NCBI GenBank assembly: GCA_003135435.1
Contig: PLBR01000160.1
Span: forward strand, 21,327-59,319
Direction of reading: 5' to 3'
From: Nitrospira sp.
GTDB lineage: Bacteria > Nitrospirota > Nitrospiria > Nitrospirales > Nitrospiraceae
DNA length: 37,993 nucleotides
Positions within the stretch are counted from its first letter, which is position 1. The number at the start of each line of letters is the position of its first letter. Shown here in pieces: positions 984-37,686 of the stretch. A program made the translations under genes and the position numbers. The notes below the pieces were generated by a model. It ran no database searches. It was given only the letters and a program-made list of their open reading frames with translations, and was not told where the DNA came from.

Positions 984-1400
984 TCACGGGTACTTTGCCT
1001 CAATGATGCTTCGGAGCCCGCCACGCGCGGCGAAGGTGCCAGTCACTCTGGCCCACACAGGCTGGCAGGCCTTCACGACGTCGTACAGGATGCGGTTGAC
1101 CGCGTTCTCGTAAAAGATGCCGAGATTTCGGTACGCATGGAGATACATTTTCAACGACTTCAGCTCCAGGCACTCTTTGTCCGGCATGTAGTGCAGCGTG
1201 ATGGTGCCGAAGTCCGGAAGGCCGGTCTTCGGGCAGATCGCGGTATATTCAGGGATCTCGATGGTGATTTCGTAGCCCTTGTATTGGTTCGGGAATGTTT
1301 CAATGTCCGACAGTGGAGCGGTAATCCCGCTCTTTGCATGGTCTTCGTTGTAGCCAAGTTGTGCAGTCTTCGATTTTTTTCTTGCCGTTTCACGTTTCAC
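984..1400 (-). CDS. queF: NADPH-dependent 7-cyano-7-deazaguanine reductase QueF (GTG start lies in a period-7 tract)
   Basis: EYTAICPKTGLPDFGTITLHYMPDKECLELKSLKMYLHAYRNLGIFYE matches the QueF active-site region; ORF 138 aa. Confidence 0.93.
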   Translation of the reverse strand: MKRETARKKSKTAQLGYNEDHAKSGITAPLSDIETFPNQYKGYEITIEIPEYTAICPKTGLPDFGTITLHYMPDKECLELKSLKMYLHAYRNLGIFYENAVNRILYDVVKACQPVWARVTGTFAARGGLRSIIEAKYP

Positions 1401-1420
1401 GTTTCACGCCTCACGTCTTA
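1387..1420. repeat. Period-7 tract
   Basis: GTTTCAC GTTTCAC GTTTCAC GCCTCAC GTCTTA. Confidence 0.85.
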
Positions 1421-13345: not shown

Positions 13346-13349
13346 ATAA

Positions 13350-13436
13350 GTGAAGTGTGATGCGTGATGGTCTGAATAGCCGCCAGCGCCAGCTTCTCGC
13401 ATCTCTACCCATCACTGATCACTCGTCACCCATCAC
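13350..13436. repeat. Inverted period-7 tracts between aclB and aclA
   Basis: GTGAAGT GTGATGC GTGATGG ... CCATCAC TGATCAC TCGTCAC CCATCAC. Confidence 0.85.
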
Positions 13437-13460: not shown

Positions 13461-15281
13461 ATGAGTATCCTCGCAGACAAAGATACCTATGTGGTCATTC
13501 AGGGCGGCGTCGCAGGGGTAAACGCCGCGCGCCGGATGGCCGAGTTTTGCTATCTGATCAAACGCTCTCTGAACGTTCTGGCCTTCGTCTATCCGCCTGA
13601 CGCCGGCAAGACGAACGAGATTCCCTACGGTAGTGGCTTGGTGGCCATTCCCATCTATAAGACTGTCGCGGAAGCCACGAAGCACCATCCACAGATCAAC
13701 ACCAGTCTCGTCTACATTGGCGCAGATCGGGCGATGAAAGGCGGGATGGAAGTCTTGGACGACCCGCACATCAAGGTGGTCTCCATGATCACCGAGGGTG
13801 TGCCGGAAAAAGATGCCAAGATCCTGGGCCGTCATGCGAACAAGCTCGGAAAGGTCTTCAATGGCCCTTCGTCGATCGGCATTGTCTCAGCCGGCTCCTG
13901 CCGGTTGGGTGTCATCGGCGGAGCCTTCGACAACCTTGTCCTCTCCAAGCTCTATCGCGAAGGCTCGTTCGGCGTCATCACCAAATCAGGCGGTCTCTCC
14001 AACGAGATTATCTGGATCTGCTCGCAGTTTGCCGACGGCATCACGACGGCCATCGGGATCGGCGGCGATGCCTATCCTGGAACCGACTATGTCAGCTATC
14101 TCGAAATGTTCGAGAACGACCCGCAAACGAAGGCGGTCGTCATCGTTGGCGAAATGGGCGGCGATCTCGAAGAGCGGGCAGCCGAGTGGTACGGGGCCAA
14201 GAAGCGGCGTGTGAAGTTGATTGCTGTCGTCTCCGGCTTCTGCCAGGAAAGTTTGCCGAAGGGCATGAAGTTCGGTCATGCAGGCGCCAAGGAAGGCCTG
14301 AAGGGCGAAGGATCGGCCCGTTCCAAGTCTGATGCCTTGAAGAAGGCTGGCGCGATCGTACCGGCAACATTCGGTGCCTTGGGCCCCGCCATCAAGGAAA
14401 CGTATCAAGATCTGTTGAGATCCGGCCAGGTTAAGGAACCGGTTGAACTGCTTTCACTGCCGAAGTTGCCGAGGACAATCGAAGAGGCCATGAAGGCGGA
14501 TGAAGTCATGGTCGCCCCACTGATCCGCACCACGATCAGCGACGATCGCGGAGACGAACCCTGCTACGACGGGTATCCGGCTTCCGAACTCATCAATAAA
14601 GGCTACGAAATTCCCCATGTCATTGGCCTGCTGTGGGACAAGCGGCTGATCTCCAAACAAGAAGCTGAAATCATTAAGCGCATCATGATGCTCTCCGCCG
14701 ACCATGGCCCCTGCGTCAGCGGGGCGCTGGGAACGATCATCGCGGCCTGTGCAGGGATCGGCCTGTCCCAGTCGGTTGCAGCAGGACTCATCATGATCGG
14801 CCCTCGCTTCGGCGGCGCCGTAACCGATGCCGGACGCTACTTCAAGCATGCGGTCGACAACAAGATGTCCGTCGACGAGTTCCTTACCTATATGAAGAAG
14901 AACGTTGGGCCGGTGCCGGGGATCGGCCATCGCGTCAAGAGTCTGCGCAATCCGGACAAGCGAGTGAAGGAGCTGGTCGGGTACGTCAAGAGTTTGAACA
15001 GCAAGACCCCCTGCTTGGATTTTGCGCTCGAAGTGGAAAAGGTCACATCGGTGAAGAAGGACAACCTGATTCTAAACGTGGACGGAACGATGGCAGCGGT
15101 GCTTGTCGATATCGGGTTCCCGGTTGACAGCTTGAACGGCTTCTTCATCCTCTCACGCACGATCGGATTGATCGGGCATTGGGTGGATCAGAAGCGTCAG
15201 GATAGCCGCTTGATCCGGCTGTTCGATTACCTCGTGAATTATGCGGCACCCAAAAGGCGGGAAGTGCCACCGTTGAAATAG
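13461..15281 (+). CDS. aclA: ATP-citrate lyase, large (alpha) subunit
   Basis: 606 aa; SucD-like CoA-ligase region (GVITKSGGLSNEI, FGHAGAKEG) fused to citrate-synthase-like C-terminus (SADHGPCVSGALGTIIAACAG, VPGIGHRVKS). Confidence 0.93.
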   Translation: MSILADKDTYVVIQGGVAGVNAARRMAEFCYLIKRSLNVLAFVYPPDAGKTNEIPYGSGLVAIPIYKTVAEATKHHPQINTSLVYIGADRAMKGGMEVLDDPHIKVVSMITEGVPEKDAKILGRHANKLGKVFNGPSSIGIVSAGSCRLGVIGGAFDNLVLSKLYREGSFGVITKSGGLSNEIIWICSQFADGITTAIGIGGDAYPGTDYVSYLEMFENDPQTKAVVIVGEMGGDLEERAAEWYGAKKRRVKLIAVVSGFCQESLPKGMKFGHAGAKEGLKGEGSARSKSDALKKAGAIVPATFGALGPAIKETYQDLLRSGQVKEPVELLSLPKLPRTIEEAMKADEVMVAPLIRTTISDDRGDEPCYDGYPASELINKGYEIPHVIGLLWDKRLISKQEAEIIKRIMMLSADHGPCVSGALGTIIAACAGIGLSQSVAAGLIMIGPRFGGAVTDAGRYFKHAVDNKMSVDEFLTYMKKNVGPVPGIGHRVKSLRNPDKRVKELVGYVKSLNSKTPCLDFALEVEKVTSVKKDNLILNVDGTMAAVLVDIGFPVDSLNGFFILSRTIGLIGHWVDQKRQDSRLIRLFDYLVNYAAPKRREVPPLK

Positions 15282-15342
15282 CTATCAGCCATCAGCGCTC
15301 AGCTCATGCTGACTGCTGAAAGCTGACGGCTGTGAGCTTTTA
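15280..15342. repeat. Period-7 tract with strand switch between aclA and aconitase
   Basis: AGCTATC AGCCATC AGCGCTC AGCTCAT GCTGACT GCTGAAA GCTGACG GCTGTGA GCTTTTA. Confidence 0.9.
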
Positions 15343-15354
15343 AGGAGAATAATC

Positions 15355-17601
15355 ATGTCGATGGATCTTGCCAAGAATCTCTATGCAAAGATGCCGGACG
15401 TGTTCGCCAAGGCCAGGAAGAAATTCGGGCGTGGCCTGACACTGGCGGAAAAAATACTGGTTTCACACGCCGACAATTTCGAGACCCAGACCTGGGAGCG
15501 TGGTAAGGCGATGTTGTCGCTACGGCCCGATCGCGTCGCGATGCAGGACGCAACGGCCCAAATGGCCATGTTGCAGTTCATGCAGGCCAACAAGATGCAA
15601 GTAGCCGTGCCGAGCACCATCCATTGCGACCACTTAATCCGTGCCGAGATGGGTTCTGAGAAGGATCTGCTTCGTGCGGTGGACGAGAACAAGGAAGTCT
15701 ATAATTTTCTCGCCTCGGCGGCCAAAAAGTACGGCATTGGCTTCTGGAAGCCAGGCGCCGGGATCATTCATCAAGTCGTGTTGGAGAACTACGCGTTCCC
15801 AGGCAGCTTAATCATCGGTACTGACTCACACACCCCCAACGGCGGTGGGCTCGGCGGATTGGCGATCGGCGTCGGTGGGGCCGATGCCGGTGAAGTGATG
15901 GCTGGTCTGCCATGGGAAGTCCTCCATCCGAAACTGATCGGCATCCGCCTGACCGGCAAGTTGAGCGGCTGGACCTCGGCGAAGGACGTGATTCTGTACC
16001 TCTGCGGCTTGCTCACGGTGAAGGGCGGGACGAATAAGATCGTCGAATACTTTGGGCCCGGTGCGGAAACCATCAGCGCGACCGGTAAGGGGACGATCTG
16101 CAACATGGGCGCGGAGCTGGGAGCCACGACATCGGTATTTCCCTTCGATCAGAAGATGGTCGCCTATCTGAACATCACGGATCGGGCCGATCTGGCCAAC
16201 CTGGCGATCGTCAACAAGACATTGCTTGTGGCGGATCCCGAGGTCTATCAGTCGCCGGAGAAGTACTACGACCAGATCGTCGAAGTCGATTTGTCGACGC
16301 TCGAGCCCCATGTAGTCGGGCCTCATACGCCGGATCTCGCGCGCCCCATTTCGAAGATGGCGGCGGAAGCCAAGGAGAAGGGCTATCCGGTCGAACTCAA
16401 AGCTGCGCTGATTGGGAGCTGCACCAATTCATCCTATGAAGACATCAGCCGTTCAGCCCACATCGCCCAGCAAGGGTTGAAGGCCGGGCTCAAAGCGAAA
16501 GCCTCGTTCCTCGTGTCGCCCGGCTCCGAGCGCATTTACCATACGATGAAGCGCGACGGGTTTCTGGACACATTTGAAAAATTGGGCGGCACGGTGCTGT
16601 CGAACTCCTGTGGCCCCTGCATCGGGCAGTGGAAGCGGGCCGATGGCGTGAAGGGGAAAGCGGATTCGATCGTCAGTTCTTTCAACCGCAATTTTCCTGG
16701 CCGCAACGACGGCATCAGTGAAACCCTATCATTCCTCGCGAGCCCGGAAATTGTGACCGCCTATGCCATATCGGGTGATTTGACCTTCGATCCTGTCAAT
16801 CAGAAGCTCAAGGGAGCGGATGGCAAGGAATTCAAGTTCGAGCCGCCGCAGGGTGAAGAGCTTCCGGCCAAGGGCTTTGCGAAGGCTGAGGAAGGCTTCG
16901 TTGCGCCAGCCGCCAACGGCGAGAGCTTGCCCGTTGAAATTCCGCCGACCAGCGAGCGGTTGCAGTTGCTCCAGCCCTTTCCACGTTGGGACGGCAAAGA
17001 CTTCGAGAAACTCCCGCTGTTGATCAAGACCAAGGGCAAGACGACGACCGATCACATCTCTCCGGCCGGTCCCTGGCTCAAGTTCCGCGGCCATTTGGAC
17101 AAGATCAGCGACAATATGTTCTTGGGTGCGAACAATGTATTTTCTTCCGAGCCTGGCAAGGGTACGGATGTATTGACCGGGGAGTCAGGCCTGACGATGG
17201 CCCAGATCGCCCGGCGGTATAAGGCGAAGGGGGTCGGCTCTATTGTGGTGGGCGATGAAAACTATGGGGAGGGCAGCAGCCGGGAGCATGCCGCCATGTC
17301 ACCGCGGTTCCTCAATGTGCGCGTCGTCATTACGAAGAGCTTTGCCCGCATTCACGAGACCAATTTAAAGAAGCAAGGGATCTTGGCGTTGACCTTCGCT
17401 GACCCGAAGGATTACGAGAAGATTGAGCAACAGGACCGCATCAGTGTGACGGGGCTGAGCGCATTGGCTCCCGGCAAACCGGTGCAGGTGACGATACACA
17501 AGACGGATGACACAGCGCTCACCATTCAGGCGAACCACAGCATCACCGAGCAACAGATTGCGTGGTTCAAGGCAGGTTCGGCGTTAAATGCGCTGAACTA
17601 A
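15355..17601 (+). CDS. Aconitate hydratase
   Basis: IHCDHLI, GTDSHTPNGGGLGGLAIGVGGADA, GSCTNSSYEDI, NSCGPCIGQW, GDENYGEGSSREHAAMSPR. Confidence 0.95.
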   Translation: MSMDLAKNLYAKMPDVFAKARKKFGRGLTLAEKILVSHADNFETQTWERGKAMLSLRPDRVAMQDATAQMAMLQFMQANKMQVAVPSTIHCDHLIRAEMGSEKDLLRAVDENKEVYNFLASAAKKYGIGFWKPGAGIIHQVVLENYAFPGSLIIGTDSHTPNGGGLGGLAIGVGGADAGEVMAGLPWEVLHPKLIGIRLTGKLSGWTSAKDVILYLCGLLTVKGGTNKIVEYFGPGAETISATGKGTICNMGAELGATTSVFPFDQKMVAYLNITDRADLANLAIVNKTLLVADPEVYQSPEKYYDQIVEVDLSTLEPHVVGPHTPDLARPISKMAAEAKEKGYPVELKAALIGSCTNSSYEDISRSAHIAQQGLKAGLKAKASFLVSPGSERIYHTMKRDGFLDTFEKLGGTVLSNSCGPCIGQWKRADGVKGKADSIVSSFNRNFPGRNDGISETLSFLASPEIVTAYAISGDLTFDPVNQKLKGADGKEFKFEPPQGEELPAKGFAKAEEGFVAPAANGESLPVEIPPTSERLQLLQPFPRWDGKDFEKLPLLIKTKGKTTTDHISPAGPWLKFRGHLDKISDNMFLGANNVFSSEPGKGTDVLTGESGLTMAQIARRYKAKGVGSIVVGDENYGEGSSREHAAMSPRFLNVRVVITKSFARIHETNLKKQGILALTFADPKDYEKIEQQDRISVTGLSALAPGKPVQVTIHKTDDTALTIQANHSITEQQIAWFKAGSALNALN

Positions 17602-19860: not shown

Positions 19861-19895
19861 CAGTGAAATGTGATCTGTGATGCGTGATGGGTGGA
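19861..19895. repeat. Period-7 tract between icd and frdB
   Basis: CAGTGAA ATGTGAT CTGTGAT GCGTGAT GGGTGGA. Confidence 0.8.
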
Positions 19896-19927
19896 GCGAC
19901 CTGCCCGCACGCTGCACAAAGAGGAAA

Positions 19928-20681: not shown

Positions 20682-22283
20682 GTGGACATCCATGCGCTTC
20701 AACAGATCGTGCACCAGACGCGGGATGCTCGACGCAAGCAGACTCTTCCCAAGTTTTCTCCCGCGGATCGCGACCAACTGATCCACAAATATCATCCTGA
20801 TTTTCGGGAGCGAGCCTATCGACCGATCCGCTTCGGTCCCAATGACGGGGATAAGACGGTTCTCGAGTTGGCGACATTGCTGGAGGGCGATAGTCCCATT
20901 GCCGACGGGTTCGATCTGACGGCCGACCACACGACCGATGTCCTGGTGGTGGGCGGCGGGGGTGCCGGCTGTGCGGCGGCGCTCCATGCGCATGCGGCGG
21001 GTGCCAAGGTCATCCTGGCTACAAAGCTCCGTCTGGGTGACTCCAACAGTGTGATGGCTCAAGGGGGCATGCAGATTTCGGTGGCGCCCGAGGACTCGCC
21101 CGTCACGCATTTCGTGGATACGCTGAAGGGCGGCCACATGCAAAATGACCATCAGCTGCTCAAGGTGATGGTCGAAGAAGGCCCCTCGATTGCGAAGTGG
21201 TTGTTGAGCCTGGGCGTGCTGTTCGATCGTGATGCGGACGGCAACCTGCATGTGAAAAAAGGCGGCGGGAGTTCGAAGCCTCGCCTCCTGACCTGTTCAG
21301 ACTACACCGGCCTTGAAATCATGCGGGTGCTCAAGGACGAGGTGTTGAATCAGAACATCCAGTTACTCGAGTTCTGCGCCGCGGTAGAGCTGACGAGTGA
21401 CGAGAAGGGAAACTGCACCGGCGCCATTTTCAAAGACCTCGACAACCATCGCCATGTCGTCGTAGCAGCCAAGTCCGTCATTCTGGCGACCGGCGGGATT
21501 GGCCGGCTCCACATTCAAGGATTCCCGACCAGCAATCACTACGGTGCGACTGGCGACGGGCTGTGCTTGGCCTATCGAATGGGCGCGAAGCTTATGCACA
21601 TCGATACGTTCCAGTATCACCCCTCCGGTGCAGTCTATCCCGAACAGCTCATCGGGGCGTTGGTGACAGAGGGCATTCGATCCGAAGGCGGACATTTGGT
21701 CAATGCGAAGGGTGAACGGTTCGTCAACGAATTGGATACCCGCGACGTCGTGTCCTCCTCGATTATTCGCGAGTGTGAAGAGGGGCGCGGCATCCGCACG
21801 ATGTCCGGCCGCATCGGCGTCTGGCTCGATACCCCGCTGCTCGATGCCGAACATGGCCCCGGCACCGTGGAGAAGCATTTCCCCGCGATGATGCTGCAGT
21901 TCGAACGATTCGGCATCGATATCAGCAAAGACCCCGTATTGATTTATCCGACGCTGCACTATCAGAACGGTGGCGTGAAGATCGATACCAATTCAGAAAC
22001 CAATGTGAAACATCTCTTCGTCGCGGGCGAGGCGTCCGGCGGATTGCACGGACGCAATCGATTGATGGGCAATTCGCTCCTCGACCTGATGGTCTTTGGA
22101 AGGCGGTCTGGGCTGACGGCCGCAGCTCGTGCCGCTACCATGCCGCAAGGGAAGTTGACGGTCGGGCATCTGAAGGGGTTCCGTGCCGAGGCCAAGAAGC
22201 ATGGCAGTGCGGGCGGAGTTGTGTCGCCCATGATCCTGCCGCCGTATACTAGAAAAGAACCAGAGCGTATGGCGAATAGCTGA
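20682..22283 (+). CDS. frdA: Fumarate reductase/succinate dehydrogenase flavoprotein subunit
   Basis: TTDVLVVGGGGAGCAAALHAHAAGAKVILATK FAD motif; SVMAQGGMQ; HPSGAVYPEQLIGALVTEGIRSEGG; GEASGGLHGRNRLMGNSLLD; GTG start. Confidence 0.9.
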   Translation: MDIHALQQIVHQTRDARRKQTLPKFSPADRDQLIHKYHPDFRERAYRPIRFGPNDGDKTVLELATLLEGDSPIADGFDLTADHTTDVLVVGGGGAGCAAALHAHAAGAKVILATKLRLGDSNSVMAQGGMQISVAPEDSPVTHFVDTLKGGHMQNDHQLLKVMVEEGPSIAKWLLSLGVLFDRDADGNLHVKKGGGSSKPRLLTCSDYTGLEIMRVLKDEVLNQNIQLLEFCAAVELTSDEKGNCTGAIFKDLDNHRHVVVAAKSVILATGGIGRLHIQGFPTSNHYGATGDGLCLAYRMGAKLMHIDTFQYHPSGAVYPEQLIGALVTEGIRSEGGHLVNAKGERFVNELDTRDVVSSSIIRECEEGRGIRTMSGRIGVWLDTPLLDAEHGPGTVEKHFPAMMLQFERFGIDISKDPVLIYPTLHYQNGGVKIDTNSETNVKHLFVAGEASGGLHGRNRLMGNSLLDLMVFGRRSGLTAAARAATMPQGKLTVGHLKGFRAEAKKHGSAGGVVSPMILPPYTRKEPERMANS

Positions 22284-22359
22284 TGGCGTATGGTCAGACC
22301 AAGATGACCTGCTTTCGGTTCCGAGCCATATGCTAATTGCCATCAGCCATTAGCTCTTA
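22265..22359. repeat. Inverted period-7 tracts between frdA and sucC
   Basis: GCGTATG GCGAATA GCTGATG GCGTATG ... GCCATAT GCTAATT GCCATCA GCCATTA GCTCTTA. Confidence 0.85.
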
Positions 22360-22368
22360 GAGGTTACG

Positions 22369-25071: not shown

Positions 25072-25099
25072 AGCATATGCCATACGCTATTAGCTTCGC
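25072..25099. repeat. Period-7 tract downstream of sucD
   Basis: AGCATAT GCCATAC GCTATTA GCTTCGC. Confidence 0.65.
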
Positions 25100-28119: not shown

Positions 28120-28333
28120 CAGGATGCTGAAAATGACTCCCTTCTCACCCGCCCACCCTGCGCGCCGAGACGCGCTTTTCCTCGAGCGTCGTTCTCAGTC
28201 GCCCGTCTCCCTGCAACGTACCCCCCCGGTGATTGAGCTGTCTTGGCAGCTCGGGGTGGGCGGGTGGAAAAGGAGTACGCTTCAGTCGCCGAGCTCCCTG
28301 CGGCCTAGCTGGGATGCCATTTTGAGCATCCTG
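28120..28333. repeat. Inverted-repeat-bounded intergenic element (CAGGATGCT family)
   Basis: CAGGATGCTgAAAATG ... CATTTTgAGCATCCTG ends; nested ACTCCcTTcTCACCCGCCCACCC / GGGTGGGCGGGTGGAAAAGGAGT inverted repeat. Confidence 0.8.
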
Positions 28334-30760: not shown

Positions 30761-30937
30761 ACCGCATTATTCATGAACACTTCTGCTGCAATCGCCGATT
30801 CCTGACTCAAGCGAGACGGGCGAGACAGGCGGGAAAAGCGCGACTGCAGGGACAGGGCTCACACGTCACGCGAGTCTCGCTCCTCGCGCTTGTCGCGCGC
30901 TACTCCGGGACGAACCGTCATGAATAATGCGGGCTAG
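30761..30937 (+). repeat. MITE-like repeat family, copy 3
   Basis: ACCGCATTATTCATGAAC..TTCTGCTGCAATCGC ... GGGACGAACCGTCATGAATAATGCGGGCTAG. Confidence 0.85.
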
Positions 30938-32998: not shown

Positions 32999-35504
<2,506 letters not shown>

Positions 35505-37568: not shown

Positions 37569-37587
37569 CGCAGGGCGGTACTGCCCA

Positions 37588-37686
37588 AGTTCTGAGTTCT
37601 GAGTTTTGAATTTGCTCAGTATTTGCAAATCCTTTTCAATCGGCATCAGTAACTCAGAACTCATAACTCAGAACTCTAAACTATTT
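37588..37686. repeat. Inverted period-7 tracts between ccdA and dapB
   Basis: AAGTTCT GAGTTCT GAGTTTT GAATTTG ... AACTCAG AACTCAT AACTCAG AACTCTA AACTATT. Confidence 0.85.

Follow-up and report, generated by a model that had tools for sequence, protein, structure and literature searches.

Elements of the kind analyzed here have so far been known from scattered examples, the closest being the paired sites of Geobacter and the degenerate heptanucleotide repeats of cyanobacteria. Among the latter, the STRR repeats attributed to Mazel et al. 1990 are said to be degenerate 7-bp tandem repeats that occur in many intergenic places. In Geobacter metallireducens, the "predicted global regulator binding sites" of classes 1-3 are composed of 4-5 tandem octa- or heptanucleotide units, mostly arranged as pairs on opposite strands at a variable distance, and were read as IHF/HU sites (PMC2700814). 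P6b of the cyanobacterial tRNA-Leu group I intron carries degenerate heptanucleotide repeats that base-pair into a hairpin and vary in copy number, with two repeat classes occupying the same stem in different strains (PMC3488679). Direct repeats of the word TAACTGA are found in marine Beggiatoaceae, cyanobacteria and Bacteroidetes (PMC4679880). Our search of the open-access literature found neither a report of such elements from Nitrospira nor one of word replacement at fixed junctions, which is weak evidence for novelty.

The stretch of Nitrospira DNA that we analyzed (37,993 nucleotides; hereafter "the window") contains such a tract at positions 15280-15342 of the forward strand, where it occupies the gap from the aclA stop codon to the Shine-Dalgarno sequence of the aconitase gene. 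The left arm (15280..15307) consists of four units of the word TCAGCNN (AGCTATC, AGCCATC, AGCGCTC, AGCTCAT), and the right arm (15308..15342) repeats the reverse complement, GCTGANN, five times (GCTGACT, GCTGAAA, GCTGACG, GCTGTGA, GCTTTTA), the final unit entering the Shine-Dalgarno sequence. The 7-bp phase is therefore unbroken over nine units, four TCAGC-type followed by five GCTGA-type, while in mid-tract the word (N)TCAGC switches to its reverse complement GCTGA(N). The stop codon TAG of aclA (15279..15281; ORF 13461-15281) overlaps the first unit. The first-pass annotation of this DNA had reported the nine heptads, their phase, the strand switch and the overlap with the stop codon, and the sequence is exactly as it stated. 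The tract is among the top lag-7 scores of the window (27/42 matches), with no lag other than 7 or 9 exceeding 25 matches, and the right arm has a partner score of 26, as compared to 9 in shuffled sequence.

The names aclA and aclB were taken from the same annotation together with the NCBIfam domain pattern. Both products resemble succinyl-CoA ligase subunits, the C-terminal part of aclA corresponds to a citryl-CoA-lyase/citrate-synthase, and the aconitase downstream matches TIGR01340 above the cut-off; it is followed by genes for a monomeric isocitrate dehydrogenase, a fumarate-reductase-like flavoprotein, sucC and sucD. Folding of the region from stop to start codon with ViennaRNA predicted an RNA hairpin at 15280..15338 (minimum free energy -31.7 kcal/mol, z -3.4), rod-like in shape and made of four helices of 4-5 bp with small internal loops between them. 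The aconitase Shine-Dalgarno sequence AAGGAG (from 15342) and ATG, which together span 15342..15357, were predicted to be mostly unpaired (0.83 and 0.80, respectively). The predicted hairpins of such elements sit between the stop codon and a mostly free Shine-Dalgarno sequence, with fold z-scores ranging from -4.6 to about 0.

Related period-7 tracts had been proposed at further positions of the window. Those at 1387, 13350, 19861, 22265, 34270 and 37588 were detected in our scan, and those at 25072 and 26810 fell below the period-7 threshold. An inverted partner was found at 13350, 22265 and 37588, and none at 1387, 19861 and 34270. The three paired elements, all given on the forward strand, lie between aclB and aclA (13346..13436, with arms 13346-13370 and 13402-13436; word GTGATNN / NNATCAC), before sucC (22262..22361, with arms 22262-22293 and 22325-22361; GCNNATR / YATNNGC), where the left arm contains the stop codon of the gene upstream of sucC, and at 37579..37682 (arms 37579-37613 and 37651-37682; AGTTCTG / CAGAACT). 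The unpaired arrays on the same strand are a CGTTTCA array at 1386..1420, with no inverted partner within 130 bp, a GTGATGN array at 19862..19896, directly after the isocitrate dehydrogenase stop codon, and a GATGAGT-type array at 34267..34301. The period-resolved count added a paired element with 9-bp units of the GCGAGANNN type at 30804..30898 (+), and further inverted pairs with 9-bp units (GCGAGANNN, TCTGGTTNN) were seen at L018 28275 and 30989 and at L125 5625-5827. A palindrome some 118 bp long (GATGCTGAAAAAGTCCGCCAGC ... GCTGGACGGCCTTTTTGAGCATC) is also dispersed through the sequence, with copies at 28123-28330 of the window, L017 4798-4915, L138 7169-7295 and many other sites (119 end-motif matches in 622 kb, allowing up to 2 mismatches); a few of its copies hold 6-, 7- or 9-bp arrays inside.

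Such tracts are genome-wide, as had been suggested: in 622 kb of the Nitrospira genome G000, 68 period-7 tracts (at least 19/28 lag matches) are intergenic and 1 lies in genes, the gene calls having been made by a simple codon-usage caller that misses genes. Together with 400 kb from each of four relatives, this sequence forms the basis of our statistics. Within intergenic segments alone, 59 period-7 and 62 period-9 tracts were counted, as compared to 0.2 each in dinucleotide-preserving shuffles, an excess of several hundred fold, so that neither of the two conditions named in the first-pass annotation as refuting (a 7-bp autocorrelation no higher than in shuffled intergenic controls, or restriction to this locus) holds; the shuffles yielded at most 0.3 tracts for any period. 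The lag-7 autocorrelation of bulk intergenic DNA is barely raised (26.7% vs about 26%), because the tracts make up a small share of it. Tract numbers differ greatly between species of one genus: per 400 kb, 39 and 12 period-7 tracts were counted in two further species of the genus, while 2 were found in another genus of the family and 0 in another family of the same order.

The emphasis that had been placed on exactly 7 bp did not hold for the class as a whole. Units of 9 bp are equally common, with 63 period-9 tracts (53 with an inverted partner) and 68 period-7 tracts (46 with a partner) in G000, and 52 period-9 tracts (50 with a partner) and 39 period-7 tracts (33 with a partner) in a second genome of our set, G020. 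The heptad is therefore not the defining property of the class, for which "inverted pairs of short-unit degenerate arrays" is a better name. Units of 5, 6 and 10 bp also occur in this genus and periods 8 and 11 are rare; G020 has 11 intergenic period-5 tracts, 7 of them with inverted partners (C8, L225-L244), and the control genome G041 has almost no tracts. A decamer pair was seen near 385274 in G020 C8. In other phyla period 7 dominates (90 vs 18 for period 9), a ratio biased by the fact that these contigs were picked by their heptad pattern. Scanning the whole collection for one paired word (GCTGANN x3, gap, TCAGC x3) retrieved 73 stretches, which span Acidobacteria, Chloroflexi, Cyanobacteria, Planctomycetes, Delta- and Gammaproteobacteria, Nitrospirae, KSB1, Armatimonadetes, one Streptomyces and others; near these matches other period-7 words are frequent (115), vs 1-11 for periods 5, 8, 10, 11, 13, 16 and 17. 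The direct word GTGAAAN occurs in 26/32 genomes of the genus, with reversed controls at 0, and outside the genus but within the phylum it is concentrated in the same family.

That the tracts usually switch strand, as the first-pass annotation had it, was evident at a looser threshold, where for 75/99 period-7 tracts an inverted array of the same word lies no more than 130 bp away and about a quarter are unpaired. Arms are typically 28-42 bp long, usually with 4-5 units, and are separated by spacers of 0-95 bp, mostly 5-60 bp. The purine-rich arm comes first in 54/69 pairs, the tract at 15280-15342 being of the rarer opposite kind. Columns that face each other in the two arms are conserved to a similar extent (r = 0.57, vs 0.14 +/- 0.05 for mismatched partners, which never exceeded 0.28 in 1000 trials) and also agree in their consensus letter (0.84 vs 0.51). 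Unit-by-unit covariation between the arms is near nil (z 2.05), as is expected if units slide. The arms match as words and not as copies, and pairing is seen at the word level only; the agreement of facing columns could also stem from one inverted duplication followed by shuffling of units. We rejected the idea that one arm had recently been copied into its partner, as there is scarcely any unit-by-unit match. We also rejected a structured spacer or apex, the spacers showing no folding beyond chance (mean z +0.10).

Tandem units in inverted pairs with a variable spacer, in which variable columns face variable columns, would also suit paired iteron-like binding sites for a nucleic-acid-binding protein, and the Geobacter authors read similar pairs as sites of this type, for IHF/HU (PMC2700814). 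For the Nitrospira elements we regard this as quite improbable, since a repertoire of about 40 distinct words among 64-69 pairs, with units of 5, 6, 7, 9 and 10 bp in one genus, ill suits one sequence-specific protein, and different words are found at orthologous junctions. The breadth of the heptad repertoire had been anticipated from the window, and stands at 39 canonical words among 64 pairs. Each pair might alternatively be a copy of a MITE-like mobile element inserted after a stop codon. Nine CGTTTCA pairs do share a GGACTGCCGAGTGCTCTTCCTCCGAA-type spacer across sites and species, forming a copied family inside the class (L023 189-288, L028 3734-3829, L142 10450-10546, G018 C69 302193 and G020 C8 264026), and some arrays are nested in the dispersed 118-bp palindrome. 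However, 47/58 spacers are unrelated to any other spacer, which speaks against a single MITE family, and such pairs occur in very few viral contigs; a mobile origin of each pair thus appears highly improbable. An origin from phages was likewise rejected, with 2 and 1 viral contigs carrying such pairs in two scans and 0 matches in a phage BLAST search.

We compared across species three junctions selected because G000 has elements there, with allele labels assigned by eye. For the aclA-acn gap we examined 30 loci from the genus and its near relatives, as well as more distant genomes; the same loci served for aclB-aclA, and 23 genomes of the genus for frd-sucC. All three junctions show the inverted-pair design again and again, with different words and sometimes different unit lengths (up to 27 species of the genus). 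At aclA-acn the words are paired TCAGCNN, GTGCTGAG, GGCGAGA or GTGAAAC, or else a weak array of the AT-rich word AATTT is present; AGCGAAT and further words occur in other genera, and in one family (f3, L075-L080) heptads are absent and a conserved ordinary GC-rich hairpin is present instead. At frd-sucC the units are of 7 bp (GCCATAN, GTGCTGAG), 9 bp (GCGAGANNN) or 6 bp (GGTTNA). At frd-sucC the element is present in 23/23 members of the genus that were read, and most have one at aclA-acn; at aclB-aclA one species has a pair with 8-bp units and four have no element. Some of the species read lack the element at aclA-acn or aclB-aclA.

Word changes at the acl junctions hardly track the gene tree, their minimum numbers being 10 and 11 among 21 and 22 species as compared to 12.1 and 12.5 with shuffled labels; at frd-sucC, 5 changes among 19 species were counted (10.5 with shuffled labels). 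Each junction has about 5-7 allele types, patchy on the gene tree, and sequences align well within a type. This pattern may suggest that whole junction alleles were swapped between species through homologous recombination in the flanking genes, the word differences being old alleles, an explanation that bears on how words change and is compatible with the one we favor below. However, the 150 bp of coding sequence flanking aclA-acn is scarcely more alike within types than between them (z 1.9 and 1.0). Because the flanks do not track allele type, any exchange would need to have involved very short tracts or to lie far back in time; flanking-gene recombination was rejected as the sole cause of word change, and we consider allele exchange of this sort rather unlikely.

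Among clean orthologues of the same word, 11/15 indels of at least 5 nt measure 7, 14 or 21 nt (the pairs not all being independent), for example 7 in G011/G016 and G024/G019 and 14 in G017/G001 and G000/G025, with exceptions of 9, 13, 15 and 20. Judged from sequence, indels of 7, 14 and 21 bp are what whole-unit slippage would give. These exact indels and the replacement of words at fixed junctions are in line with the active generating process that had been postulated from the window. Fast turnover and word replacement, together with the near absence from coding DNA, the unstructured spacers and the large differences in number between species of one genus, would also be in keeping with neutral by-products of slippage and of template switching at quasi-palindromes, kept where harmless and without function. 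Template switching has been reported to give rise to RNA hairpins (PMC8794818), but it would be expected to produce arms that are complementary unit by unit, and almost no such complementarity is seen here. A neutral origin also sits poorly with an element that every genus member read carries at frd-sucC, and most carry at aclA-acn, despite about 10 word changes on the 21-22 tips of the acl-junction trees. We therefore see neutrality as possible, if somewhat doubtful.

The position of the elements is skewed toward gene 3' ends. In tandem gaps of G000, 16/40 tracts begin between -17 and +10 nt from the upstream stop codon, and in three genomes pooled, each 10 kb of gap holds 7.1 tracts if tandem, 5.5 if convergent and 3.2 if divergent. 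In other phyla, the corresponding gaps of 23, 7 and 11 kb hold 43, 10 and 3 elements, so that divergent gaps are avoided (3/56 elements vs 27% of gap length); within the genus this avoidance is moderate, with 10/65 paired elements lying in divergent gaps. Intrinsic terminators were rejected as an explanation, as a T-run follows only 5/69 elements (baseline 3.2%) and none was called at 15280-15342, and a known RNA family was rejected since the window has no Rfam match. A tract of stop codons, in which the 7-bp step would place TGA in all three frames, was also discarded: stop codons are enriched per base in the arrays but not per distinct word (19/41 vs 17.5 +/- 2.6 in shuffles), and the enrichment is therefore due to a few abundant words.

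We give about an even chance to the explanation that the observed periodicity, inversion, 7-bp indels, position and word turnover reflect inverted short-unit arrays that grew by slippage, form a rod-like hairpin in the mRNA and persist at the 3' ends of genes. The tract between aclA and aconitase would then belong to a class in which two degenerate tandem arrays of short units face each other in inverted orientation within gaps at gene 3' ends. As each unit of one arm would be complementary to each unit of the other, the arms could pair in several registers and form a rod of short helices. They would gain and lose whole units by replication slippage, and because whole-unit growth and shrinkage keeps the pairing, the hairpin would persist while length and spelling drift. 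Words could be replaced through recombination over short tracts, by copying from elsewhere or by growth of a new array. Within operons such as aclBA-acn, an element of this kind would, if folded in vivo, be a hairpin in the mRNA between two cistrons, comparable to REPs in its effect and distinct from an intrinsic terminator, and may slow exonucleases or set the ratio of the neighboring proteins. A junction function, as suggested in the first-pass annotation, would be a putative one: position and pair design are conserved, but the element is absent in some species and the spacers have no structure beyond chance. A broader proposal is that these elements form a general bacterial gene-end class, whose architecture is inherited or re-made while word and unit length are exchanged at a fixed junction; this would imply dedicated machinery favoring 7-/9-nt units, and we hold it to be unlikely.

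For specialists, the surprising observation is that, at named operon junctions, the inverted-pair architecture persists even though the word, and in some cases also the unit length, has been exchanged. If our reading is correct, evolution preserves a structure here but not its sequence, which is completely replaced, and it does so at carbon-fixation operon junctions that are open to testing; the question of why slippage favors 7-/9-nt units can be addressed by comparing sequences of close strains.

The kinship with cyanobacterial STRR-type repeats, proposed when the tract was first noted, is supported by our data; those repeats are direct and use few words, and inversion is not known to be a stressed feature of them. 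REP/BIME elements are, similarly to those of Nitrospira, extragenic intercistronic hairpins in tandem gene gaps, but they are copies of one conserved palindrome, whereas here only the architecture is common, with many words and mostly unrelated spacers. The TAACTGA repeats also have 7-bp units, are mostly intergenic and patchy across phyla, and some sets overlap the end of the upstream gene (PMC4679880); they differ in using one word, in being almost never inverted and in lying just upstream of start codons, while the Nitrospira elements use other words, are inverted and often lie beside stop codons. With the P6b repeats our elements share degenerate 7-nt units and two arms that pair (here in the predicted fold at 15280-15338), but those repeats belong to one intron and have 7-nt units only, as opposed to many intergenic sites, many words and several unit lengths, and the element between aclA and aconitase lies in a different location (PMC3488679). 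The Geobacter sites resemble ours in their tandem units of 7-8 bp (in Nitrospira 7 bp is common, 8 bp rare and 9 bp common) and in pairing on opposite strands at variable distances, and the class 3 word MTYCTGA resembles GTTCTGA of Nitrospira elements; they comprise three fixed classes in one species with no cross-species word replacement, in contrast to the many words found here. What is new in the present elements is their breadth, their mixed unit lengths and the replacement of words at fixed junctions, and the same design in many phyla may, if our reading holds, unite the Geobacter sites, the cyanobacterial heptanucleotide repeats and the TAACTGA repeats as one class.
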